From Maricaulis salignorans (GTDB lineage Bacteria > Pseudomonadota > Alphaproteobacteria > Caulobacterales > Aquidulcibacteraceae): a stretch of 64,000 nucleotides of DNA. The notes beneath the pieces are model-generated. The model saw only the letters and a list, made by a program, of their open reading frames with translations. It made no database searches and had not been told where the DNA came from. The stretch spans positions 1 through 64,000 of the forward strand of contig CAMDDL010000011.1 in NCBI GenBank assembly GCA_945891505.1, in the 5' to 3' direction. This document shows, piece by piece, positions 53,063-64,000 of this stretch (positions are counted from its first letter, which is position 1; each line of letters opens with the position of its first letter). Both the position numbers and the translations under genes were made by a program.

Positions 53063-54049
53063 TTAGCGCGTGATAGGGGTGAGGTTCGCTTGGATGGCTT
53101 CAGCAATCGCCATGGCGTCGCGGATAGGTTCGTAAGTCCAATGGGTCAGGCTGCCGTTAAACCAGCGCGCAGCACCACGTTCGATAAAAGCTGTATGTAG
53201 GCGGTCGAATTTAGCATCCCCGCCCTCCAGCTTGATGAGATGCATCGGGATGCCAAAAAACGCGACATCGGTCATCATATTGGTGGAGTCTTCCGTCACC
53301 AAAGCGGCATCGGCTTGTGCCAACCAAGCCAGATAAGGATTTGGGCCATCTCGCCCTTCATTGGCAAAGAAGTCTGCGCCGGATGTAAAGGCAAAGGCGC
53401 GGAACAAATCTTCAGCAGATCTAGGGGTCCGCCGCGACGTCGTAATCATCAGATGAACATCTTGGTGTGCCAGCCTTTGGAGCTCTGCAACGATCGCGTG
53501 GGCGCGCGCGAGGCTGAGTCGATGGCGCTTCGATGTGCCGCCCAATATTACCATCACCTTTCGCTTGCCAAGGTGACGTGGCGCCGGGATTTGGGAGAGG
53601 GCGGTTTCAATTTGCTTCTTGGTGTACCACACGGGTGCGCCAAGGGTTGTAACAACATTCTCGCCACGTACCCCATCATGTTGGGGTGGGGCGACCAGAT
53701 CAAAGTGCTTCGGGTTCAGGCGTGGGTTTTGCACTTGCACAACAAGCGTTTGACCTAAAGTCCAACGCCTCATCCGCAAAGAATAAGGAATCGACCGCCG
53801 ACCATTGGCAATCCACACGTCCGGCCATGGGGCTTGTAAACGTTGGGCCTGTTCCATGGGAAGGGCGGCTTTGGGCATCAGCCATAGGCTAGGCGGCAAG
53901 TATAGTTGAAAGCCTGTGGGCTGCAGCCGGAGCACTTTAATCCGGGTTGGAACGCGCTCACTCAAAGCATGGGCAATAGCCAAGGTCTGGCGTTCAATTC
54001 CGGCCCGCCCATCTGACACACACCAGACTGAGACTTCATGACCTTCCAT
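53063..54049 (-). CDS. ELM1-family (mitochondrial fission ELM1-like) protein
   Basis: The 328-residue protein has the GT-B-like ELM1/DUF1022 fold: VWCVSDGRAGIERQTLAIAH at the N-terminus, DVWIANGRRSIPYSLRMRRW, LGGTSKRHRLSLARA, and the C-terminal DAALVTEDSTNMMTDVAFFG. Bacterial members are poorly studied and are often near LPS genes. GGAGAG precedes the ATG at 54049; the open frame to 54115 has no such site. It is the next reverse-strand gene after the HAD-IB phosphatase. Confidence 0.85.
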   Translation of the reverse strand: MEGHEVSVWCVSDGRAGIERQTLAIAHALSERVPTRIKVLRLQPTGFQLYLPPSLWLMPKAALPMEQAQRLQAPWPDVWIANGRRSIPYSLRMRRWTLGQTLVVQVQNPRLNPKHFDLVAPPQHDGVRGENVVTTLGAPVWYTKKQIETALSQIPAPRHLGKRKVMVILGGTSKRHRLSLARAHAIVAELQRLAHQDVHLMITTSRRTPRSAEDLFRAFAFTSGADFFANEGRDGPNPYLAWLAQADAALVTEDSTNMMTDVAFFGIPMHLIKLEGGDAKFDRLHTAFIERGAARWFNGSLTHWTYEPIRDAMAIAEAIQANLTPITR

Positions 54050-54120
54050 GCGTTCTCTCTCCGAAACTGCGCCATGCACATAAGCTGCCCAAAGGCTACC
54101 ATAGGGGCTACCCAAGCGTA

Positions 54121-54828
54121 CTAAAGCCGATTCGTCAGTCCACGTTCCATATGATTGCCAGCATAAAGCGAAAACAAGTGAAAGAAGCGGTTTCGCGGGG
54201 CTTCTTCAAAGATACGAAAGCCCGGATTTTGGGCAGCAGCCAGCATTTCCTTATCGCCGCGCGTGTCACCATAGGCGGCAACTAGGGGGGCGGTGCCAAA
54301 ATTTGCTTGAATGGCGGCAAGTTTGGCGGGGCCCCAGCAATTGTCGCCCAATAAGCGTCCGGTCAGCCGCCCATTAACGATTTCAACTTCGCTCGCCAAC
54401 ACATGATCCACGCCAAGCTCTTCTGCCCACACAGCTAAATAGTCGCGCAACGAAGCTGAGACCAAAGCCACTTGATCGCGCACACCCACATGCGCCCGCA
54501 ATCGTGCCAGTGCGTCGGGTCGGGCGACGACGGGATAAATCGCCTCCGCAAAAGCCCGGCACCGCGCCAGATAATCCTCCGCGGTCATCCCTGCGAGAAA
54601 GACGTGGAGCGTCTTTTCCTTCACCGCACTGCGGGGCAGCCCACCCAGTCGGTAGGCCAAAAAGACAGGGATAAGTTGCACCATCTTGACCACAAAGCCG
54701 AAGCGGCCGGCAACAAAGCGCAAGAACAACACAAACGAATCTGCCCACGTCAGCGTGCCATCCACATCAAACGCCGCAACGGGGCGGTTGTCTTTCGTGT
54801 CAGCAGGGCGTGTGTCTGGCTCATTCAT
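54121..54828 (-). CDS. HAD-IB family phosphatase
   Basis: The 235-residue SerB-type HAD protein has motif I AFDVDGTLTWAD, motif II VALVSASLRDYL, and motif IV AAYGDTRGDKEML. Between I and II lies a helical cap with a hydrophobic stretch (VKMVQLIPVFLAYRLG), found in the PlsC-linked and membrane-associated subgroup. Substrate is unknown. The ATG at 54828 is chosen; the open frame to 55098 passes through the antisense of tRNA-Ser, a known artefact. Confidence 0.87.
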   Translation of the reverse strand: MNEPDTRPADTKDNRPVAAFDVDGTLTWADSFVLFLRFVAGRFGFVVKMVQLIPVFLAYRLGGLPRSAVKEKTLHVFLAGMTAEDYLARCRAFAEAIYPVVARPDALARLRAHVGVRDQVALVSASLRDYLAVWAEELGVDHVLASEVEIVNGRLTGRLLGDNCWGPAKLAAIQANFGTAPLVAAYGDTRGDKEMLAAAQNPGFRIFEEAPRNRFFHLFSLYAGNHMERGLTNRL

Positions 54829-55000
54829 GACCTGTCGTTTACACAGATTTGTGTCCTTCATGCCAGTGAACACACGCATCTTATGTTGGAAGGACATGAG
54901 ACCAGCAGGGCCGCCTGCAAACCACGTCTTGCCAGAGCCGCGTTTGGTGCTTAAACACCGCGCCCTTGACCAACTTGCAACACGTTCTGCAAGGCGCACC

Positions 55001-55090
55001 GGAGGGGTGGCAGAGTGGTCGAATGCGGCGGTCTCGAAAACCGTTATAGGTGCAAGCCTATCGAGGGTTCGAATCCCTCCTCCTCCGCCA
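55001..55090 (+). tRNA. tRNA-Ser, anticodon CGA
   Basis: The 90-base gene folds as a class II tRNA. Acceptor GGAGGGG (55001-55007) pairs with CTCCTCC (55080-55086), followed by G and an encoded CCA. The anticodon stem GCGGT/ACCGT encloses CTCGAAA, giving anticodon CGA for UCG codons. A long variable arm (TATAGG..CCTAT) and T arm GAGGG-TTCGAAT-CCCTC are clear. Confidence 0.97.
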
Positions 55091-55285
55091 TTTTTCAATC
55101 ATCTGAAAGCCCATTCGCTACAGCTCGTTCCCCAAGGCAACGACCTTTATTCGCGGCCTTTTGTCACGTGTTGCGGAGCCGTAATGCAATCTAAAAAACT
55201 GTTTTAAAAAGTAAATAAGTGGCCTAATTGTAGGGCCGATTTTTCTCGCTACATAGAGCACTCAATCTGGTGCGGGAGCGACTGA

Positions 55286-55795
55286 GTGAAAGTAGCGCTT
55301 TGGATTATTGGCGGTTTGGCGGGTTTGGCGGCTTTTGTGGTGTTGGTCGGCATTATGCTACCTGCCACGCGAACGGGGAAAGTTGATCGGGTGGTGGCGG
55401 CCACGCCCGCACAATTAAACGCCGTCATCCTCGACCGGGTGAGCCAGCCCACTTGGCGGCTAGACCTTGCGAAAGTCGAGATGCAATCCACGACGCGTTG
55501 GACTGAGACCACCCAAAGAGGCGAGGTGATCGCCTTTGAACTGACGCGGCAGGAACCAAATCTGCTCCAAATGCGGTTTGAAAGCAGCTATGGCTATCAA
55601 GGCCAGTGGGAAGGTCGCTTGGTGCCGACGCCATCGGGAGGCACGCACATCTTTGTGACGGAGCAGGCCACGACACCTTCGCCGATTGGCCGTATATTCG
55701 CGCGACTATTTTTCAATCCAGAGGCTTTTGCCAATGCCTATCTCGACGCGTTGGCAAAGGAGACCCAGCGGCGATACACACGAGACCTAAAATGA
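55286..55795 (+). CDS. SRPBCC-family protein with N-terminal membrane anchor
   Basis: The 169-residue protein starts with a membrane helix (VALWIIGGLAGLAAFVVLVG), followed by an SRPBCC (START-like) fold: TPAQLNAVILDRVSQPTWRL, MRFESSYGYQGQWEGRLVPT. It may bind a hydrophobic ligand, unknown. GTG at 55286 is preceded by GGGAG 7 bases upstream. The stop overlaps the next gene's ATG by 4 bases. Confidence 0.8.
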   Translation: MKVALWIIGGLAGLAAFVVLVGIMLPATRTGKVDRVVAATPAQLNAVILDRVSQPTWRLDLAKVEMQSTTRWTETTQRGEVIAFELTRQEPNLLQMRFESSYGYQGQWEGRLVPTPSGGTHIFVTEQATTPSPIGRIFARLFFNPEAFANAYLDALAKETQRRYTRDLK

Positions 55796-56247
55796 CCAGC
55801 ACTGACAAACCAAAGCCTAAAAAGCCAACCGATTGGCGCAAGCGCTTTGACAAGGCCAAACCACCTAAAACACTCGTGCTTCACACCGACTTTGCCGGCA
55901 CTAAAACTGGCACGACCATGTATATTGGCTCTCCCGGCACCATTGCGAACTATATCTCGCGCATCCCAGCAGGCGAGGTTCGCAGCATAGAGCGGATGCG
56001 CAATGAATTGGCGCGCAAGAATGACGCGCAGGCCACCTGCCCAGTCACAACGGCTATCTATCTGAAAGTCGTGGCTGAAGTGGCGCTTGCCGATCTAGCC
56101 GAGGGTAAGCCAAGCACAGCGGTGGTGCCGTTCTGGCGGGTGATTGAGCCTGAAAGCAAGATCGCGAAGAAACTGAGCTGCGACAGCCAAGCCATTGAAC
56201 ATTATCGCTTGTTAGAGCAAGCGGGTAGGGGCGTGGCTCTCGCTTAA
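55792..56247 (+). CDS. MGMT-family (alkyltransferase-like) protein
   Basis: The 151-residue protein has a basic N-terminus (KPKPKKPTDWRKRF) and the MGMT-like DNA-binding domain seen in proteins annotated 'MGMT family': IPAGEVRSIERMRNELARK, DAQATCPVTTAIYLKVVAE, VVPFWRVIEPESKIAKKLSC. Where O6-alkylguanine transferases have PCHR with the acceptor cysteine, this has PFWR, so it should bind DNA but not transfer alkyl groups. It overlaps the SRPBCC gene. Its N-terminal part has a shortened copy in the mini-ORF at 56244-56390. Confidence 0.75.
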   Translation: MTSTDKPKPKKPTDWRKRFDKAKPPKTLVLHTDFAGTKTGTTMYIGSPGTIANYISRIPAGEVRSIERMRNELARKNDAQATCPVTTAIYLKVVAEVALADLAEGKPSTAVVPFWRVIEPESKIAKKLSCDSQAIEHYRLLEQAGRGVALA

Positions 56248-56390
56248 TCCGCCCCGGCGACCCCGCGGGAGTCACACACAAAGCAGCCGCCTTCAAACAG
56301 GCTCTCTTCCTTAGGCACTGGCACCATAGAGGCCATGATGCCGCCAAATCGATTTCGCCAGTCGGTTGGTCGTTTTAGCTTTGGCGTCAT
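56244..56390 (-). pseudogene. Chimeric 48-residue ORF: MGMT-like N-terminus joined to TrhO C-terminus
   Basis: Residues 1-15 (MTPKLKRPTDWRNRF) resemble the start of the neighbouring MGMT-like protein (KPKKPTDWRKRF). The last 22 residues, from PKEESLFEGG onward to the terminal GVAGAD, match the end of the TrhO protein at 59439. At DNA level 56249-56345 is 89/97 identical to 59444-59540 without gaps. AAGGA lies 8 bases before the ATG at 56390, so it could be translated. Most likely a recombination scar; a functional micro-protein is possible. Its stop overlaps the MGMT-like stop tail-to-tail. Confidence 0.6.
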
Positions 56391-56623
56391 GTTTAGCTTC
56401 CTTGCTGTCGATCCTTGACGGGGTGAGCGCCTTTTCATTCCGAATGGGTCTCTCGCGATGTGCGAAGCAAATTAGCTCAATAGACAACAAGCGCATTTAT
56501 GCTAAGTTTTTGTTTTTTAAAACAATAATTTAGTTTGATTCATGTTGGGTTCAACCGGATCGCGGCTGTAAAGCTAGCCAAAAGAATAGGTAAATTATGA
56601 CGCGCACCCTGTCAGAATATTCT

Positions 56624-56650
56624 TGACACTACTAACCGGCTAGTTAGTTT
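56624..56650 (+). promoter_or_regulatory. Promoter with inverted repeat ahead of the glycine-repeat protein gene
   Basis: TTGACA (56624-56629) is a perfect -35; TAGTTT (56645-56650) is the likely -10 with a short 15-base spacer. Between and across it lies the inverted repeat ACTAAC-N5-GTTAGT (56632-56648), a good candidate operator. Confidence 0.5.
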
Positions 56651-56687
56651 TCCTGGTGGCAAGATTGTGTGTGGAGGAAGAAACAAG

Positions 56688-57494
56688 ATGGTTAGTGATG
56701 TGGTTTGGCGTCTAATGTCGCACCCGGTTTCAGCTGGTTTGGCCGTTGTTTTGGCAACCGCAAGCGCTGGCGCGGCTTTAGCGCAATCATCTTCAAGGCC
56801 ACCAGCGGAACAGCCTGCTTCGACTGCTCTCGCCGCTCCTCCTGCCGGAGTCGCTACAGCCCCATCAGGAAGGACGCCTTCTCGGCCCCCAATTTCAAGT
56901 GGCAGCGGCAGCGGTGGCTATAATCCAGGCGGCAATAGCGGCAGCGGTGGCTATAACCCGGGCGGCAATAGCGGCAGCGGTGGTTATAACGCCGGTGGCA
57001 ATAGCGGCGGCGGTGGCTATAACCCCGGTGGCAATAGTGGCAGCGGCGGCAGCGGCTACAATCCTGGAGCCAGCAGTTCTCGCCCTGATTATAACCCAGG
57101 TGGTGCTTGGAACGGTGCGACCGGGGATGGCTGGAACCCTGGCAATTATTATCAGCGGTCCGTCATCCAAGGTTGGGTCCGGCTTGGCTTCGCTGAAGCG
57201 GGCAAGGGCGCTGATAAGGATACCATTCAGGCCAATGGGCGCTATCGCTACTCTCGTATCAAGCTATGTGTCCGAGTGGCCGATGTGGCATTTTATGACG
57301 CACAAGTTCAGTTCGAGGCTGGCGGAAGGCAGGATATCCGAGTTCAGTCACGGGTGAAAACGGGTCAGTGCACGCGGGAGTATTATTTGCGGGGCGGCAA
57401 AAGCCTCGACATCCGCTATGTGTACCTGTTCTTCCGGCAGGCAGATAACATAACAAATTGGCGAACGGCTCGCGTCGATTTATATGCTCGTTAA
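56688..57494 (+). CDS. Secreted protein with glycine-rich repeats and DUF2541-like C-terminal domain
   Basis: The 268-residue protein has a signal peptide (HPVSAGLAVVLATASAGAAL), a Ser/Pro linker, four 11-residue repeats GSGGYNPGGNS (with slight variation, residues 74-117) and a beta-rich C-terminal domain of about 110 residues. The latter (YSRIKLCVRVADVAFYDAQV, GGRQDIRVQSRVKTGQCTRE) resembles DUF2541-type domains. Function is not known; it probably acts in the periplasm or at the surface. GGAGGA lies 8 bases before the ATG at 56688. Confidence 0.75.
   Translation: MVSDVVWRLMSHPVSAGLAVVLATASAGAALAQSSSRPPAEQPASTALAAPPAGVATAPSGRTPSRPPISSGSGSGGYNPGGNSGSGGYNPGGNSGSGGYNAGGNSGGGGYNPGGNSGSGGSGYNPGASSSRPDYNPGGAWNGATGDGWNPGNYYQRSVIQGWVRLGFAEAGKGADKDTIQANGRYRYSRIKLCVRVADVAFYDAQVQFEAGGRQDIRVQSRVKTGQCTREYYLRGGKSLDIRYVYLFFRQADNITNWRTARVDLYAR
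56907..57038 (+). repeat. Four 33-bp tandem repeats inside the glycine-repeat gene
   Basis: Units 56907-56939, 56940-56972, 56973-57005 and 57006-57038 each code for an 11-residue GSGGYNPGGNS-type repeat. Most differences are at third codon positions, with one Pro-to-Ala and one Ser-to-Gly change. Copy number could vary between strains. Confidence 0.9.
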
Positions 57495-57679
57495 GGTCCA
57501 ATTGACCCATCTGTATAACCAATTTCACCAAACATCCGATATTGGGTTGTTTTGGGGGACGTTGGACCGCGACTGAGTGGATGCTTTCCAAGTCTCAAGG
57601 ACTTGGAGGACTAGCGCTTTGGTGTAAAACCTTGCGGGCCGCTTGTCATTTGTATGTGTAGTCAAGAAACGGGGTTCCA

Positions 57680-59428
57680 ATGTGTAATGCGTGCGATGAA
57701 AAATTCATGTCGGTCATGCGGACGTTACACGGACGACGCGATTTTCTCCGCGGCATGGGCGGCGGGTTTGTCGCAACAGCCGTTGCAACGCCCGGCGCGG
57801 CTTTCGCTGCAGCGGATGAGAAACGCTATGCCGACAAGATTTTTCTTGCCAAGCGCATCCATACCATGGACGCCCGCAACTCGATCGTCGAAGCTGTCGC
57901 CGTGCGCGACGGCTTGATCCTAGCGCGGGGTCGACGCGACAGGATTTTAGGGCTGAAGGGGCCCCGCACGCAGGTGGTCGATTTTGGCGATTATACCGTG
58001 CTGCCCGGCTTTGTTGACCCACACATGCACTCTAATTTCGCAGGACTGCGCCCTTGGTTGGACATCGGCCCCTTTACAACGGCGACGATGGATGACGCGC
58101 GTCAAAAAATTCGCGATGCCGTTGCCAAGACATCTCCGGGGGGGTGGATTCAAGGAAAAATGCTGGACCCGTCGATTATGCCGGGTCCACCATTAACGCA
58201 GCAGGACCTCGACACGCTTTCCCCGGATGTGCCGGTCTTTATCTTGGAGTCCAATGGACATAATGCCTATGCTAATACCCGTGCCTTTGCTCTGGCGGGG
58301 GTGACAAAAGATACCCCCGATCCGCCACAGGGACGTTTCGTTCGGGGGCCGGATGGCAACCTAACGGGTCGTTTGGAAGAACCTCCCGCATTCCAACCCT
58401 TTATCCGTGTCATGTCCTCGCAAACTGGCCCAGAATTGGTCGGTTTCTTACGCGCAGATCTCGACGATGCAGCAGCTAAAGGCTGCACCGCCCTGCATGA
58501 TTGCGGGATTGGCGGATTATTTGCCGAAGCCGACATTGCCCTAATTCAAGCAGCGCTTAAGGATGAAGCACCCGTACGGTATGCCGGTCTTCTTGTTTCC
58601 ACCCATTATGAAAAATGGAAAGAAATGGGATTGAAGCCCGGTCTGCACTCACCCAATTTTTCCTTTAGCGGCATCAAGGCTTGGTCGGACGGTTCCAATC
58701 AAGGTTTGACCGGTTATCAGCGTACTCCGTATTTAAATTCCACCAATCGTGGCGCGTTGAACTATTCGCCTCAAGAGATAGAGGCACTGGTACGAACCCT
58801 TCATTCTGATGGCTGGCCAATTGGTATTCACGCCAATGGAGATGCCGCGATTGATGTGGTGCTTGATGCTTATGAGCGGGGAACCGGCGGCGAAGGTGGC
58901 CATAAGCTGAGACATCGGATTGAGCATTGTAGCATTCTTCATGACGATCAGATCGCCCGAATGAAGGCCTTGGGCATATCGCCTTCATTCCTGATCGGCC
59001 ATGTGCATTATTGGGGTCGGGCGTTCCGCGATCGCTTGTTAGGGCCAGATCGCGCCAATCGACTGGACCCCTGCCGATCAGCCCTTGCCGGAGGCCTGCG
59101 GATATCCTTGCACTCGGATTACAATGTCACACCGATCGATCCGCTAAGGTGCGTTGAAAATGCAGTCTTGAGGGATATGAATGAAGGCGGCGGCATCTTG
59201 AGTCCTGACGAGTGCATCACGCCGCTTCAAGCAATTCGCGCCGTGACCATCGATGCCGCTTGGCAGTGCCACCTCGATCAAACGTGTGGGAGCCTCGAAG
59301 TTGGTAAGGCTGCTGATTTGGTCGTGCTTGAACGCGACCCATTGAAGGTCGCGCCCGATACGTTGCGAACGATAGGCGTTCATTCCACGTGGCTAAATGG
59401 CGAAAGCCGCTTTAAACCTGCCGGGTGA
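57680..59428 (+). CDS. Tat-exported amidohydrolase (YtcJ-like, amidohydrolase 3 family)
   Basis: The 582-residue protein has an odd N-terminus MCNACDEKF, then a Tat signal (HGRRDFLRGMGGGFVATAVA). Metal-binding motifs of the amidohydrolase superfamily follow: HMH in FVDPHMHSNF, Lys region GIKAWSDGSNQG, IHANGDAAID, HRIEHCSI and Asp in ISLHSDYNVTP. The C-terminal SLEVGKAADLVVLERDPL closes the small domain. It probably hydrolyses an amide-like substrate in the periplasm. Confidence 0.88.
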   Translation: MCNACDEKFMSVMRTLHGRRDFLRGMGGGFVATAVATPGAAFAAADEKRYADKIFLAKRIHTMDARNSIVEAVAVRDGLILARGRRDRILGLKGPRTQVVDFGDYTVLPGFVDPHMHSNFAGLRPWLDIGPFTTATMDDARQKIRDAVAKTSPGGWIQGKMLDPSIMPGPPLTQQDLDTLSPDVPVFILESNGHNAYANTRAFALAGVTKDTPDPPQGRFVRGPDGNLTGRLEEPPAFQPFIRVMSSQTGPELVGFLRADLDDAAAKGCTALHDCGIGGLFAEADIALIQAALKDEAPVRYAGLLVSTHYEKWKEMGLKPGLHSPNFSFSGIKAWSDGSNQGLTGYQRTPYLNSTNRGALNYSPQEIEALVRTLHSDGWPIGIHANGDAAIDVVLDAYERGTGGEGGHKLRHRIEHCSILHDDQIARMKALGISPSFLIGHVHYWGRAFRDRLLGPDRANRLDPCRSALAGGLRISLHSDYNVTPIDPLRCVENAVLRDMNEGGGILSPDECITPLQAIRAVTIDAAWQCHLDQTCGSLEVGKAADLVVLERDPLKVAPDTLRTIGVHSTWLNGESRFKPAG

Positions 59429-59438
59429 CACGTCGCTA

Positions 59439-60185
59439 TCAGTCCGCCCCGACGACCCCGCGGGAGTCAAACACAAAGCAGCCGCCTTCAAACAGGCTCT
59501 CTTCCTTGGGCACGTGCTCCATATAGGCCAAGATGCCGCCTTTGAGGTGGTAGACGCTCTCAAAGCCCTCTGCGAGCAGATAAGCGGAAGCCTTCTCGCA
59601 GCGGATGCCGCCGGTGCAATACATTGCGACCTTTTTGTCGCGCGTGGGGTCGAGATTGTCTTCGGCCCATTTTTTGAACGCGGTGAAGGTGCGAATTTTG
59701 GGGTCGATGGCGCCTTTGAAAATGCCTTCTTCGGTCTCATAGGCATTGCGGGTATCGACCAGCACAATCTCGGGGTCCGCGATTAAGGCATTCCAGTCTG
59801 AAGGCGCAATATAGGTGCCCACGACTTGGCGAGGGTCTGCTTTTGGTGCGCGCAGAGTGACGATTTCGCGCTTCAATCGCACTTTCATGCGCACAAACGG
59901 ATTTTTGTCCTCCTGCGCATATTTGATTTCAGCGTCCTTGAACCGACCAGAAAAGATCGCGTCATTCTCCAGATAAGTCACGAATTGATCGATCCCCTCG
60001 GGTGGGCCCGCTATCGTGCCATTGATGCCCTCAGGGGCAATTAAAAGCGTGCCCATAATTCCTAATTGCTTCGTCGTCGCTAACAGATCAACGCGCAGGA
60101 CTTCAAAGTCCGGGCAATAGGCAAACTTATAGAGGGCGCAAATCTTGGCAGTCATGGCAGGGCCATAGCAAAACACCGCCACCAT
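59439..60185 (-). CDS. trhO: tRNA uridine(34) hydroxylase TrhO (rhodanese-like, UPF0176)
   Basis: About 248 residues. The N-terminal ferredoxin-like domain (LLIAPEGINGTIAGPPEGID) is followed by a rhodanese domain with active-site loop MYCTGGIRCEKASA. TrhO hydroxylates U34 of some tRNAs. The protein stops soon after EGGCFVFDSR; E. coli TrhO has about 70 further residues with cysteines, absent here. ATG 60185 has a GGGGGTG site; ATG 60155 (MTAKICALYKF) is an alternative. Its 3' end is duplicated at 56249-56345. Confidence 0.88.
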   Translation of the reverse strand: MVAVFCYGPAMTAKICALYKFAYCPDFEVLRVDLLATTKQLGIMGTLLIAPEGINGTIAGPPEGIDQFVTYLENDAIFSGRFKDAEIKYAQEDKNPFVRMKVRLKREIVTLRAPKADPRQVVGTYIAPSDWNALIADPEIVLVDTRNAYETEEGIFKGAIDPKIRTFTAFKKWAEDNLDPTRDKKVAMYCTGGIRCEKASAYLLAEGFESVYHLKGGILAYMEHVPKEESLFEGGCFVFDSRGVVGAD

Positions 60186-60443
60186 GGGCACCCCCGGCGT
60201 GCAGATGAGGGGCGGGAGCGCCAGAGTGGTTTCTGAGCTGGAGGCCTGTCGGGGCTGATAGGAGGGCTTTGCGCCAAGGCCAGTCGATTGGGCTGACAAC
60301 CAACCTAAATGATATTAGGAAGTGCTCGACCATGGTGCCTTCCATGGTTGACATGCACCCTGCGGCGCAAAGCGCATTCCTAGGATAGCGCTATAATTTC
60401 TTGATCGCGCGATTTCCTTAGGCCCAATCAGACCGCAACGATT

Positions 60444-61808
60444 CTAGGCCGCCAGCACTTGTGGTTTCGTGATTGGGAAGACTGGGACAAACAAATTGGC
60501 TTGCGTGCCATGACCGATGCGGCTGCGGATCTCAACCCGGGCGCCGAGCAATTCACTGAGGCGCTTTGTAACTGCTAGACCAAGTCCTGAGCCGTCATGG
60601 TGGCGGGTTAGGCTGGAATCAATCTGGGTAAAGGGTTCGAATATCCGCTCCAGTTGGTCGTTTGGAATACCGCATCCAGTGTCGATCACGCTAAACCAAA
60701 GCCAGTCCTGCGTCGCATCGCTATAGGGACGGACACTGAGCGTAACGTGACCCAAATCGGTAAATTGACACGCGTTTGCTGCCAGATTAATCAGACATTG
60801 CAACAGACATCTTGAATCGGTCTGCAAAACGGGCAGTTCCTGCACGATATCGATCTTCAGGTCGACTGGCTTTGATTTCACCAAATGGCCAACGGTTTCG
60901 CGGACTTGGTCAAGCAATTCCGCCAACTCAACTGTGTCTAATTGCAGGTCGATGCGACCTGCTTCGAATTTGGTGAGGTTGAGAATGTCGTTAATCATCG
61001 CCAGCAAATGTTTGCCCGCGCGTTTTATGCTATTCACGTCGCTAATCGAAACTTTCTCGCCCAAATCCACATCTTCTTTGATAATCTCCGCATACCCAAT
61101 GATCGAGTTAAGGGGTGTTCGAAATTCGTGGCTGATGTTACCAATGAAGCTCGTTTTGACAGCAAAGGCTGCTCGCGCTGCTTCTAGCGCATGTGTCAGT
61201 TCCTCAGTGCGTGCTTTGACGCGCAATTCTAACAAATCGCGTTCTTCGCTTAAGGCAAGATGTGCTGCCCTTAAGTCTTCGCCAGCCCGATAAAGCACGC
61301 GCGCGTTCACTAAGATGATCGCTATCGCACCTAAAAGCGCTAACGACGCAATGCTCGCAATTATCCACGGGAAGCCTGACCAGAGGTATTGGACCACTAG
61401 GAACAGCAACATTGTCAAAGGCGGCGTAACCGACGCGACCAAAATACTCAGAGACCGATGTCCATTTAAAATAGAGTAAGTTGCCATTGTGAATAAGGCT
61501 ATGACCGCAACCAGTCGTGTTAACTCGCTGCCGTGCTGCCACAACAAGTAAGTCAGACTTACCCAAGTCATCACCACCGAAAAGATCGCGATTACGTAGT
61601 ATGGTGCATACCTTATTTCTCCAGCCGCGACTTTGGGTCCGAACCACTTAACACAGCCTTCACCAAAGCTGATGCATGCCAGCCAAGTCAAAGCGATGGT
61701 CCAGTTGGTCGCGATTGCAACCATTAGCGCGACAATGACTGCCATGCCGACCCGCCAATACACTTGATCCTTTGTGTCCTGCTGTACCTTTGCGACGATT
61801 GGGTTCAT
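60444..61808 (-). CDS. Membrane-bound sensor histidine kinase
   Basis: The 454-residue protein has six or more membrane helices (MAVIVALMVAIATNWTIALT through LLGAIAIILVNARVL), a coiled linker, HisKA with His227 (ISHEFRTPLNSIIGYAEIIK) and an HATPase domain (VIDTGCGIPNDQLERIFEPF, GSGLGLAVTKRLSELLG). The integral-membrane sensor of this kind lacks a large periplasmic part and may sense membrane state. No partner regulator is adjacent. The ATG at 61808 is chosen; an open frame to 61883 exists. Confidence 0.88.
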   Translation of the reverse strand: MNPIVAKVQQDTKDQVYWRVGMAVIVALMVAIATNWTIALTWLACISFGEGCVKWFGPKVAAGEIRYAPYYVIAIFSVVMTWVSLTYLLWQHGSELTRLVAVIALFTMATYSILNGHRSLSILVASVTPPLTMLLFLVVQYLWSGFPWIIASIASLALLGAIAIILVNARVLYRAGEDLRAAHLALSEERDLLELRVKARTEELTHALEAARAAFAVKTSFIGNISHEFRTPLNSIIGYAEIIKEDVDLGEKVSISDVNSIKRAGKHLLAMINDILNLTKFEAGRIDLQLDTVELAELLDQVRETVGHLVKSKPVDLKIDIVQELPVLQTDSRCLLQCLINLAANACQFTDLGHVTLSVRPYSDATQDWLWFSVIDTGCGIPNDQLERIFEPFTQIDSSLTRHHDGSGLGLAVTKRLSELLGARVEIRSRIGHGTQANLFVPVFPITKPQVLAA

Positions 61809-62018
61809 GAGTTTTGGCTCTATTGGGGGCTTGGCTATCTGAGCGCGACGTTCGTTTCCAGCGAGGTTTTTGCCGGATCGCAACGATTAGTTATTCTGTT
61901 GAAACACCCTTGTTACCTAGGAGGATTTAATAACCTTTAAATGTCACGCACAAAATTTTTGTGATTGGGTGAAGGTTTATTGGAAACAAAGACTTTTTAA
62001 AGTCTAGATTGGAACAAG

Positions 62019-62240
62019 ATGGATTTACACGCAGTGCCGGGTGCTCAGACTGCAACACGCTTCGCGTCAGAGGGAGTCTTCCGTTCAGAAGATACCATCT
62101 GCGTCGCCGGTGGTGACGCCCACGTTCGCTTTGGACAGCTTTTGAGCGTCGGCTTACCGACTGCAATAGGCCCGAACCTACCATTCTCATTTCAGCCAAA
62201 ACTCGCCAAAAAGATTGAATCGAGAAACCTTTCACCCTGA
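62019..62240 (+). CDS. Possible small hypothetical ORF
   Basis: A 73-codon frame with plausible codon use but no recognised domain (MDLHAVPGAQTATRF at the start). No ribosome-binding site is evident just before the ATG, and a 106-codon frame overlaps on the other strand. It is listed only as a candidate. Confidence 0.2.
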   Translation: MDLHAVPGAQTATRFASEGVFRSEDTICVAGGDAHVRFGQLLSVGLPTAIGPNLPFSFQPKLAKKIESRNLSP

Positions 62241-62411
62241 GTTCCACACATTCAGCATGACTTCCGACCAGCCTAAGGTCGCGCCGCGCGTATTCATCGA
62301 TTTTTTTTCAATCTTTGCCTTGACGCCCAACGAGGTTAATCGGATGCGGAATTACGGTTGCGAAACAAGGTTCAAATTGAGGTTTCAGATTTGATTTGGG
62401 TGAACTTTTGT

Positions 62412-62461
62412 ATGGTAGATTTAGCTTTTGGTAGAAATGGTAGATTTAGCTATTGGAAGAA
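62412..62461 (+). repeat. 25-bp imperfect direct repeat before the exported-protein gene
   Basis: ATGGTAGATTTAGCTTTTGG and its continuation (62412-62436) recurs at 62437-62461 with two differences. It lies 15 bases before the GTG start and next to the GAGGAG ribosome-binding site. Both copies start with an ATG out of use. Confidence 0.7.
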
Positions 62462-62476
62462 ATTGAGGAGAGCAAA

Positions 62477-63475
62477 GTGAACCGGATTATTGGTATTTCG
62501 GCGCTGGCCATCTGTGTCTTTGTGCCCGTTTTATCCGTGCAAGCTTCTGGAATTGCCTCCCAAGATGCCGGTGCAACCCAAGTGCCTGCCCCTGCAGTCA
62601 CTGAACCGCCAGCCACTGCGCCTGCGCCAGAGGCTGCGCCTGCGCCGGCGGCTTCTGAACTGCCGCAAACAACGTTACCCATCGAAGCCATTGCGGCACC
62701 ACCGCCTCCTGCTGAACTACCCGCTTTTGATATGGCCTCAACGGCTGCACGCTTCAATGCGCTGGTGGGGGAGGCAGATCGGCTAACGACGTTGCGGACC
62801 CTGACGCCAGAGGCCGTTCAAGGCGCGCTTTTGTCGACTGCGCGCCTGACATCAGCTGGCATTTCCGAAGGCGCGGCTTCCTATGCAGTCCTGTCGGCGT
62901 CTGCCCACGCCCCATTTGCTTCAAGCTTGCAGACCGCCGTCAATCTGTTGGGACGCGATGCAGTGATGGAGCGCCTTAAAACTGACCCTGAAGCCTTCTT
63001 AGGACTCGTCGCCTCGTCGCAAGAGGCCGCAACCATTGCCAGCGGCGTCATGGCCGATAGCTTGGTAAAAATGGATAAAGCCAGCGCCTTACTGGGCGAG
63101 GCGGCTTATAGTGTACAAAAAGAAGCTTGGGCACAACGCGAAGTGGATGCCCAACTAGTCTTGACAGCCTATCGTACGGCTTCAACGAGTGCCGTCGAGC
63201 TTAGCCCGCTTGGCGCCTCAGACATGCGTAACACGCGCGCAGAAGTACCTTTGGATAAAAGGTTTTTGGTTGCAGCGGCCTATCATGTGCTGGGTGACGA
63301 CGTGGCGTCGACGAAGCTTATCTCCCGCACCGGCGGCAAGATGTGTATGACCCGGGTGCAATTGAACGTGCGCCAATGCTTGGCGGCCAGCCGCTATCCC
63401 TATGAGCATTTATTTTGCTTGTCACGCCATAGCTTTCAAGAGTCCTCTGGCTGCGTGCGCGATGCGATCAAATAG
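62477..63475 (+). CDS. Exported protein of unknown function
   Basis: Not recognised. About 332 residues: signal peptide (IIGISALAICVFVPVLSVQA), an Ala/Pro-rich linker (to about residue 85), a helical central region (SLQTAVNLLGRDAVMERLKT, DKASALLGEAAYSVQKEAWA) and a C-terminal region with four or five cysteines (GKMCMTRVQLNVRQCLAASR, LFCLSRH, SGCVRD), suggesting disulfides in the periplasm. GTG at 62477 follows GAGGAG by 6 bases; a TTG at 62453 is less likely. Confidence 0.7.
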   Translation: MNRIIGISALAICVFVPVLSVQASGIASQDAGATQVPAPAVTEPPATAPAPEAAPAPAASELPQTTLPIEAIAAPPPPAELPAFDMASTAARFNALVGEADRLTTLRTLTPEAVQGALLSTARLTSAGISEGAASYAVLSASAHAPFASSLQTAVNLLGRDAVMERLKTDPEAFLGLVASSQEAATIASGVMADSLVKMDKASALLGEAAYSVQKEAWAQREVDAQLVLTAYRTASTSAVELSPLGASDMRNTRAEVPLDKRFLVAAAYHVLGDDVASTKLISRTGGKMCMTRVQLNVRQCLAASRYPYEHLFCLSRHSFQESSGCVRDAIK

Positions 63476-63565
63476 TTAGGCTTAGCCTGCTTGCGCCTTT
63501 CTTCTTGCTCTGACCCAACAAGACGCTAAGTCTTAGGGCAGATCAAAATTATGGGAGTGGCCAGT

Positions 63566-64000
63566 ATGAGCAGTCTAAAAGATAAGACCCTTTTTATAAC
63601 CGGGGCGTCGCGCGGGATTGGCCTTGCAATTGGGTTGCGGGCTGCACGCGACGGGGCCAATGTCGTCATCGCAGCCAAAACGTCTGAGCCACATAAGCAT
63701 TTGCCGGGTACGATTCATTCTGCCGCAGCTGAAATTGAAGCTGCTGGCGGTCAAGCCTTGCCCTTGATGGTCGATGTGCGGGAAGAAGCATCCGTCCAAG
63801 CGGCAGTGGAGCAGGCCGTTGCCCGGTTTGGCGGCATCGATATCTGCATCAATAACGCCAGCGCGATCCAGTTGACTGGCACCCTGCAGACCGAAATGAA
63901 GCGCTATGACCTCATGCATCAGGTCAATGGACGGGGGACTTATCTGGTCAGCCGCGCTTGCATTCCTTTCCTCAAGAAGGCAGCAAATCCCCATGTGCTA
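63566..64000 (+). CDS. SDR-family oxidoreductase, HSDL2-like (partial, runs off the window)
   Basis: Residues 1-145 are visible. The NAD(P)-binding motif is TGASRGIG; LPGTIHSAAAEIEAAGGQAL and CINNASAIQLTGTLQTEMKR match the HSDL2 subgroup of short-chain dehydrogenases. The catalytic Tyr/Lys would lie beyond the edge. The ATG at 63566 follows GGGAG by 8 bases; an in-frame ATG at 63551 is weaker. Family substrate not well defined (fatty-acid linked in animals). Confidence 0.9.
   Translation, partial: MSSLKDKTLFITGASRGIGLAIGLRAARDGANVVIAAKTSEPHKHLPGTIHSAAAEIEAAGGQALPLMVDVREEASVQAAVEQAVARFGGIDICINNASAIQLTGTLQTEMKRYDLMHQVNGRGTYLVSRACIPFLKKAANPHVL

Follow-up and report, generated by a model that had tools for sequence, protein, structure and literature searches.

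Genes can change place by tandem duplication and loss, a model that, in the part of the literature on which we draw, is mostly applied to mitochondrial gene order. A second kind of event, the template-switch insertion, leaves short inverted insertions at repair junctions. The locus described here, which lies within a window of 64,000 nucleotides (the whole stretch of DNA that was analysed), bears a likeness to both. As in relocation by duplication and loss, the gene trhO, which encodes the oxygen-dependent tRNA uridine(34) hydroxylase TrhO (family NF001133), appears to have kept its orientation, jumped over its neighbours and left a remnant at its old place; unlike in that model, neither a two-copy genome nor the remnant of a second module was found, and the stump that stands at the old place bears an inverted scrap. 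As at template-switch insertions, a short inverted copy of sequence from ~0.5 kb away sits at what would be a deletion junction, although here only 45 of 246 bp are accounted for and the mechanism is a putative one. Compared with TrhO itself, the stump lacks the N-terminal domain and nearly all of the rhodanese domain, and the intact gene lies 3 kb away. We consider it very probable that the small open reading frame (mini-ORF) containing this stump is the scar of a duplication around a module of two genes, encoding a glycine-rich protein and an amidohydrolase, whichever route the duplication took. Relocation of a gene through duplication and loss is an ordinary kind of event and most likely what took place here; the inverted scrap found at the break is the unusual part.

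Table 1. Features of the rearranged region, in window coordinates
Feature	Position	Strand	Remarks
MGMT-like gene, 151 aa	55792-56247	+	Likely source of the inverted N-terminal piece of the mini-ORF
Chimeric mini-ORF, 48 codons	56244-56390	-	Probably neutral; ATG 56388-56390, stop 56244-56246
trhO stump, codons 206-238 and stop codon	56244-56345	-	92% identity to 59443-59540; abuts the MGMT-like gene
Inverted MGMT-like start (first codons)	56346-56390	-	In frame with the stump
Filler, ~200 bp	56391-56591		Separates the mini-ORF from the region shared with G004
Glycine-rich protein, 11-residue repeats	56667-57494	+	First module gene, between the stump and trhO
Amidohydrolase (PF07969)	57680-59428	+	Second module gene
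~16 bp similar to the G004 MGMT-like 3' end	59423-59438		Joined to the amidohydrolase end; right breakpoint
Intact trhO, 238 aa	59439-60155	-	NF001133 TrhO above cut-off

An earlier note on this DNA had drawn attention to the mini-ORF as a 48-residue reverse-strand frame preceded by an AAGGA site. Both are present (Table 1), with the AAGGA 8 bases upstream of the ATG, and an in-frame upstream ATG lengthens the frame to 64 aa (56244-56438). The first 15 codons resemble the start of the MGMT-like gene in inverted orientation, and the last 33 resemble the 3' end of trhO. For this second part the note had counted 89 identical bases of 97 between 56249-56345 and 59444-59540; the same match runs one base further, to 90 of 98 (56248-56345 and 59443-59540) with no gap, and the encoded residues match TrhO residues 206-238 at 82%. 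The sole family match of the mini-ORF protein is a weak one to NF001133 TrhO over residues 16-42 (E 0.0023, 17.5 bits against a cut-off of 170), which leaves it short of a functional TrhO, that is, a full-length protein above the curated NF001133 score. When 56244-56440 was searched against its own genome, two places only were returned at E of 0.001 or below, the mini-ORF and the end of trhO, and at E 1e-5 or better 59439-60155 is that genome's only full trhO copy. The assembly is a draft of 3.07 Mb in 88 contigs, which might bring an artefact of assembly to mind; because 8 of 98 bases distinguish the two copies, and each lies beside the neighbour expected for it, we regard an artefact as highly improbable.

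It is informative to examine the two trhO ends in light of the gene order of related genomes. The comparison genus comprises nine genomes, the window's own included, and is taken as Aquidulcibacter on the strength of its named relatives. Each of the nine carries one full trhO and one copy of the MGMT-like gene, and a second trhO fragment occurs in the window's genome only. In seven of the eight other genomes trhO and the MGMT-like gene meet tail to tail, their protein matches separated by 2 to 22 bases; in G005 the two are non-adjacent, on different contigs. In the closest relative, G004, which is about 87-91% identical at most genes in the region, the two genes share four bases at their stop codons. 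The stump shows a like four-base overlap with the MGMT-like gene (TTAA, 56244-56247), and the bases at this junction are of the G004 type (GATTAAGCGAGAG vs GACTAAGCGAGAG), whereas the intact trhO has GACTGATAGCGACG. Because of this overlap and these adjoining bases, the stump is most simply read, from sequence comparison, as the old end of trhO, still in place, a trhO pseudogene at the ancestral position. Since trhO ends at this place in seven of the eight relatives and the intact gene now lies beyond two others, the C-terminal piece of the mini-ORF most likely stayed where it was, and only the MGMT scrap was added.

Genes in G004 are arranged as MGMT> <trhO glycine-rich> amidohydrolase>, with an SDR gene and an mreB-like gene next, whereas the arrangement in the window is MGMT> <stump glycine-rich> amidohydrolase> <trhO, followed by a histidine kinase, one further gene, and the SDR and mreB-like genes (both of these names were read from translations). 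The amidohydrolase has its only close relative in G004 (97% at the protein level; the next among 41 genomes, own included, is at 39%). The glycine-rich protein is matched over nearly its whole length by G004, in two stretches, and elsewhere in the genus weakly by G005, over residues 162-252. At the right breakpoint, the BLAST match of the amidohydrolase to G004 runs up to 59421, and from 59423 onward the sequence matches the G004 MGMT-like 3' end together with trhO. The ~16 bp ahead of trhO reach a score against the G004 MGMT 3' end that 13 of 2000 shuffles attain, but only an ordinary one against the window's own MGMT 3' end (1103 of 2000 shuffles). Such a junction between amidohydrolase and MGMT-trhO sequence is the expected product of a duplication that spanned the stretch between the MGMT end and the amidohydrolase end: a novel joint at which the duplicated block's end meets its start, the MGMT part of that joint resting on 16 bp. 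The last codon and stop of the amidohydrolase (59417-59428) appear to have been supplied by this junction.

These observations suggest a sequence of steps. In the ancestor, as in G004 today, trhO would have lain between the module and the MGMT-like gene, tail to tail with the latter. A duplication would then have put a second trhO, with a few MGMT 3' bases, directly after the amidohydrolase, at the junction now seen there; the old trhO would subsequently have lost codons 1-205; and the break would have been filled by an inverted scrap of the MGMT 5' end and ~200 bp, perhaps by template switching during repair. The net effect would be that trhO hopped over two genes and left behind a stump whose open frame is due to chance and whose evolution is neutral. 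That the left trhO copy was ever full length is a candidate only, as part of this favoured route.

The earlier note had proposed looking for intermediate duplications in relatives, and among the nine genus genomes none has two full trhO copies. Beside the intact trhO (60213-60444), three comparisons for remnants of a second module scored at chance (141, 305 and 200 of 500 shuffles). Because neither a two-copy genome nor a second-module remnant is seen, tandem duplication with two losses is a favoured rather than a demonstrated route, and for the same reason some weight has to be given to a one-step insertion of the module that duplicated the end of trhO as it entered. The module would then have come from outside, from a G004-like donor, between MGMT and trhO, by homology-facilitated insertion through one homologous and one illegitimate joint, and trhO would never have moved. 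Such an insertion takes fewer steps in the window's lineage and yields the same direct repeat ~3.2 kb apart and the same amidohydrolase/MGMT junction. However, the module is no more similar to G004 (91% identity for the amidohydrolase, 80% for the glycine-rich gene) than its flanks are (87% and 90%), if one percentage point in the amidohydrolase is disregarded, so nothing marks it as newly transferred, and the presence of the module on the other side of trhO in G004 would call for a separate event. Within the reading of the locus as a scar, we therefore hold outside insertion to be a doubtful, if possible, route.

A direct repeat of this kind could also be the work of an integrating element that targets the 3' end of trhO, the two copies being its attachment-site duplications. 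The 98-bp direct repeat of a gene's 3' end does flank a 3-kb segment, and the gene is complete on one side; but the only ORFs longer than 152 aa between the copies are those for the glycine-rich protein and the amidohydrolase, neither of them an integrase by Pfam, and in G004 the module lies on the other side of trhO with no flanking repeat reported by BLAST. We give this explanation almost no credence.

The inverted N-terminal piece had been described as about three-quarters identical to the MGMT-like start over 42 bases, and closer comparison bears this out. The first 15 codons of the mini-ORF read MTPKLKRPTDWRNRF, and the MGMT-like start, with which the mini-ORF start codon aligns, reads MTSTDKPKPKKPTDWRKRF in the window and in G004 and MTAKPKKPTDWRKRF in G006 to G008. 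The 30 bases encoding KRPTDWRNRF agree with the window's own MGMT-like gene at 23 positions, and with the next best place on either strand of the 64-kb window at 19. Over all 45 bases, 35 agree with the own gene if a 12-base in-frame gap is allowed in that gene, and 33 agree, ungapped, with the MGMT-like start of G006 and G007. A DNA search covered 398 genomes from the order, with the own genome among them and up to two candidates scored in each. Its best foreign match was the MGMT start of G007 (E 3.6e-5); next came those of G006 (E 7.3e-4) and G008 (E 7.8e-4), along with an unrelated place in G199 (E 7.5e-4). The source may be the own gene with 12 bases lost, or that of another strain. Because the piece differs from its source at 10 of 45 positions, an excess over the 8 of 98 by which the stump differs from trhO, it may be older or derive from another strain.

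For the MGMT-like gene, all four aligned members match PF01035 at E up to 1, the best at 0.0016, and the window's protein scores 16.9 bits against a cut-off of 27; there was no NCBIfam match, and no PDB match using the alignment. Among the named relatives that carry the gene are Aquidulcibacter paucihalophilus TH1-2, Aquidulcibacter sp. LE19-59.1B and Hyphomonadaceae bacterium UKL13-1.

Between the stump and the region shared with G004, only the 45 bp of the inverted piece, out of 246 bp, have an assigned source; the filler (Table 1) gave no convincing match in the own genome or in genomes of the family or order. A repeat, I1 (55187-55230 and 56494-56537), hinted that the inverted MGMT piece extends into the region upstream of the MGMT operon. 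The score of such an extension was reached by 1 of 500 shuffles for the own genome, 1 of 300 for G006 and 16 of 500 for G004, and by 103, 104 and 294 of 300 for G003, G007 and G008, respectively; in the opposite orientation against the own operon, 5 of 500 shuffles also reached the score, and the stretch is AT-rich. The fusion junction had 0 exact matches in viral_contigs.

It is also worth considering whether the mini-ORF is a gene. The earlier note left the choice between gene birth and the scar of a segmental duplication, and remarked on the intact frame. The frame is indeed open, but this counts for little because it is expected by chance: in simulations, 10 random changes left it open in 74% of sequences, and 20 changes in 53%. 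Between the stump and the intact trhO there are seven nonsynonymous and two synonymous differences, a ratio that fits the expectation of no selection from all possible single changes of the trhO tail (221 nonsynonymous and 67 synonymous, with 9 stops), on few sites of one sequence. Intact tails in the genus differ from the window's trhO with nonsynonymous to synonymous counts of 1:6 (G004), 1:8 (G006 and G008) and 1:10 (G007) and, among the more distant ones, against which the contrast is weaker, 2:7 (G001), 3:7 (G003) and 6:10 (G002); the tail of G005 was left out of these counts. When the stump was compared with five of these genomes by Fisher tests, which share sequences and so are not independent, p ranged from 0.005 to 0.04 for G004, G006, G007 and G008 and was 0.07 for G003; G001 and G002 were left out. 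The numbers are small but point one way: judged by its codon changes, the stump looks free of the constraint on TrhO and appears to be decaying neutrally.

Nor does the chimera show the conservation in relatives expected of a new gene. Among the 61 genomes searched, the 60 others hold no match at E below 0.01 that begins before residue 13; weaker matches that span most of the 48 residues have E of at least 0.0107, for example one in G021 (residues 3-46, 39%) that lies in a 513-codon frame. A promoter scan found no site, a result that says little, as it covered sigma-70 types only and 0.5 sites were expected by chance. Absence of the frame from close relatives, which the earlier note held would leave only a decaying scar, is what we find across the genomes compared, of which G004 is the closest; they include a single strain, that of the window itself, from the window's own species. 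The scar half of the note's alternative is supported, with the stump at the old trhO end, and the birth half finds no support, with the chimera in only one of the genomes searched and its substitutions in neutral proportion. A newborn gene would have arisen by a chance rearrangement that fused the start and ribosome-binding site of MGMT to the tail of TrhO, so that a 48-residue protein is translated in this species and is useful to it. The open frame, the start codon aligned with that of MGMT and the AAGGA 8 bases upstream are what such a gene would have; confinement to a single genome among those searched, differences that fit no selection and a frame whose openness is expected by chance tell against it. 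Nothing in the comparisons supports gene birth, and we judge it very unlikely both that a young chimeric gene was made here and that its protein is produced.

Two broader points follow from this locus. It can be read as a record of a conserved gene moving in a bacterial chromosome, in which old site, new site, junction and scrap are all visible and a sister genome, G004, shows the likely earlier order. It also invites caution, because a scar can contain an open frame as well as a ribosome-binding site and show homology to two genes, so that these features do not on their own prove the birth of a gene.

Several features of the surroundings deserve mention. Upstream of the intact trhO, 60282-60390 is a dispersed, partly palindromic intergenic repeat found at many places in the genus, with 15 matches in G008, 9 in G006, 8 in G003, 2 in the own genome (itself included) and none in G002 at E up to 0.01. 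The resemblance of 60282-60381 to sequence upstream of trhO in G006 and G007 was considered as proof that trhO had stayed in place, and was dropped on account of this dispersal. On the other side of the locus, a tRNA-Ser (anticodon CGA) lies beside the MGMT operon, within 55001-55190, and Rfam at gathering thresholds found nothing but one tRNA in 54000-64000. The gap after the tRNA-Ser is ~0.1 kb in the window and 5.7-5.8 kb in G007 and G008, and upstream of the MGMT operon in G006 there is an ORF whose start resembles what we take to be phage-type integrases; the stretch after the tRNA-Ser is perhaps an integration hot spot.

Within the module, the tandem 11-residue repeats of the glycine-rich protein (33-bp units, 56904-57107) align imperfectly with those of G004; weak relatives of the protein's C-terminal part occur in G005 and in four further genomes from the family. 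The amidohydrolase ends in PAG-stop in the window and in PAS-stop in G004, where it is followed almost directly by the SDR gene; 60444-63415, with the histidine kinase and most of the following gene, is absent there in G004. Further along, 62412-62461 is a head-to-tail duplication of 25 bp whose copies are 92% identical (family D4).
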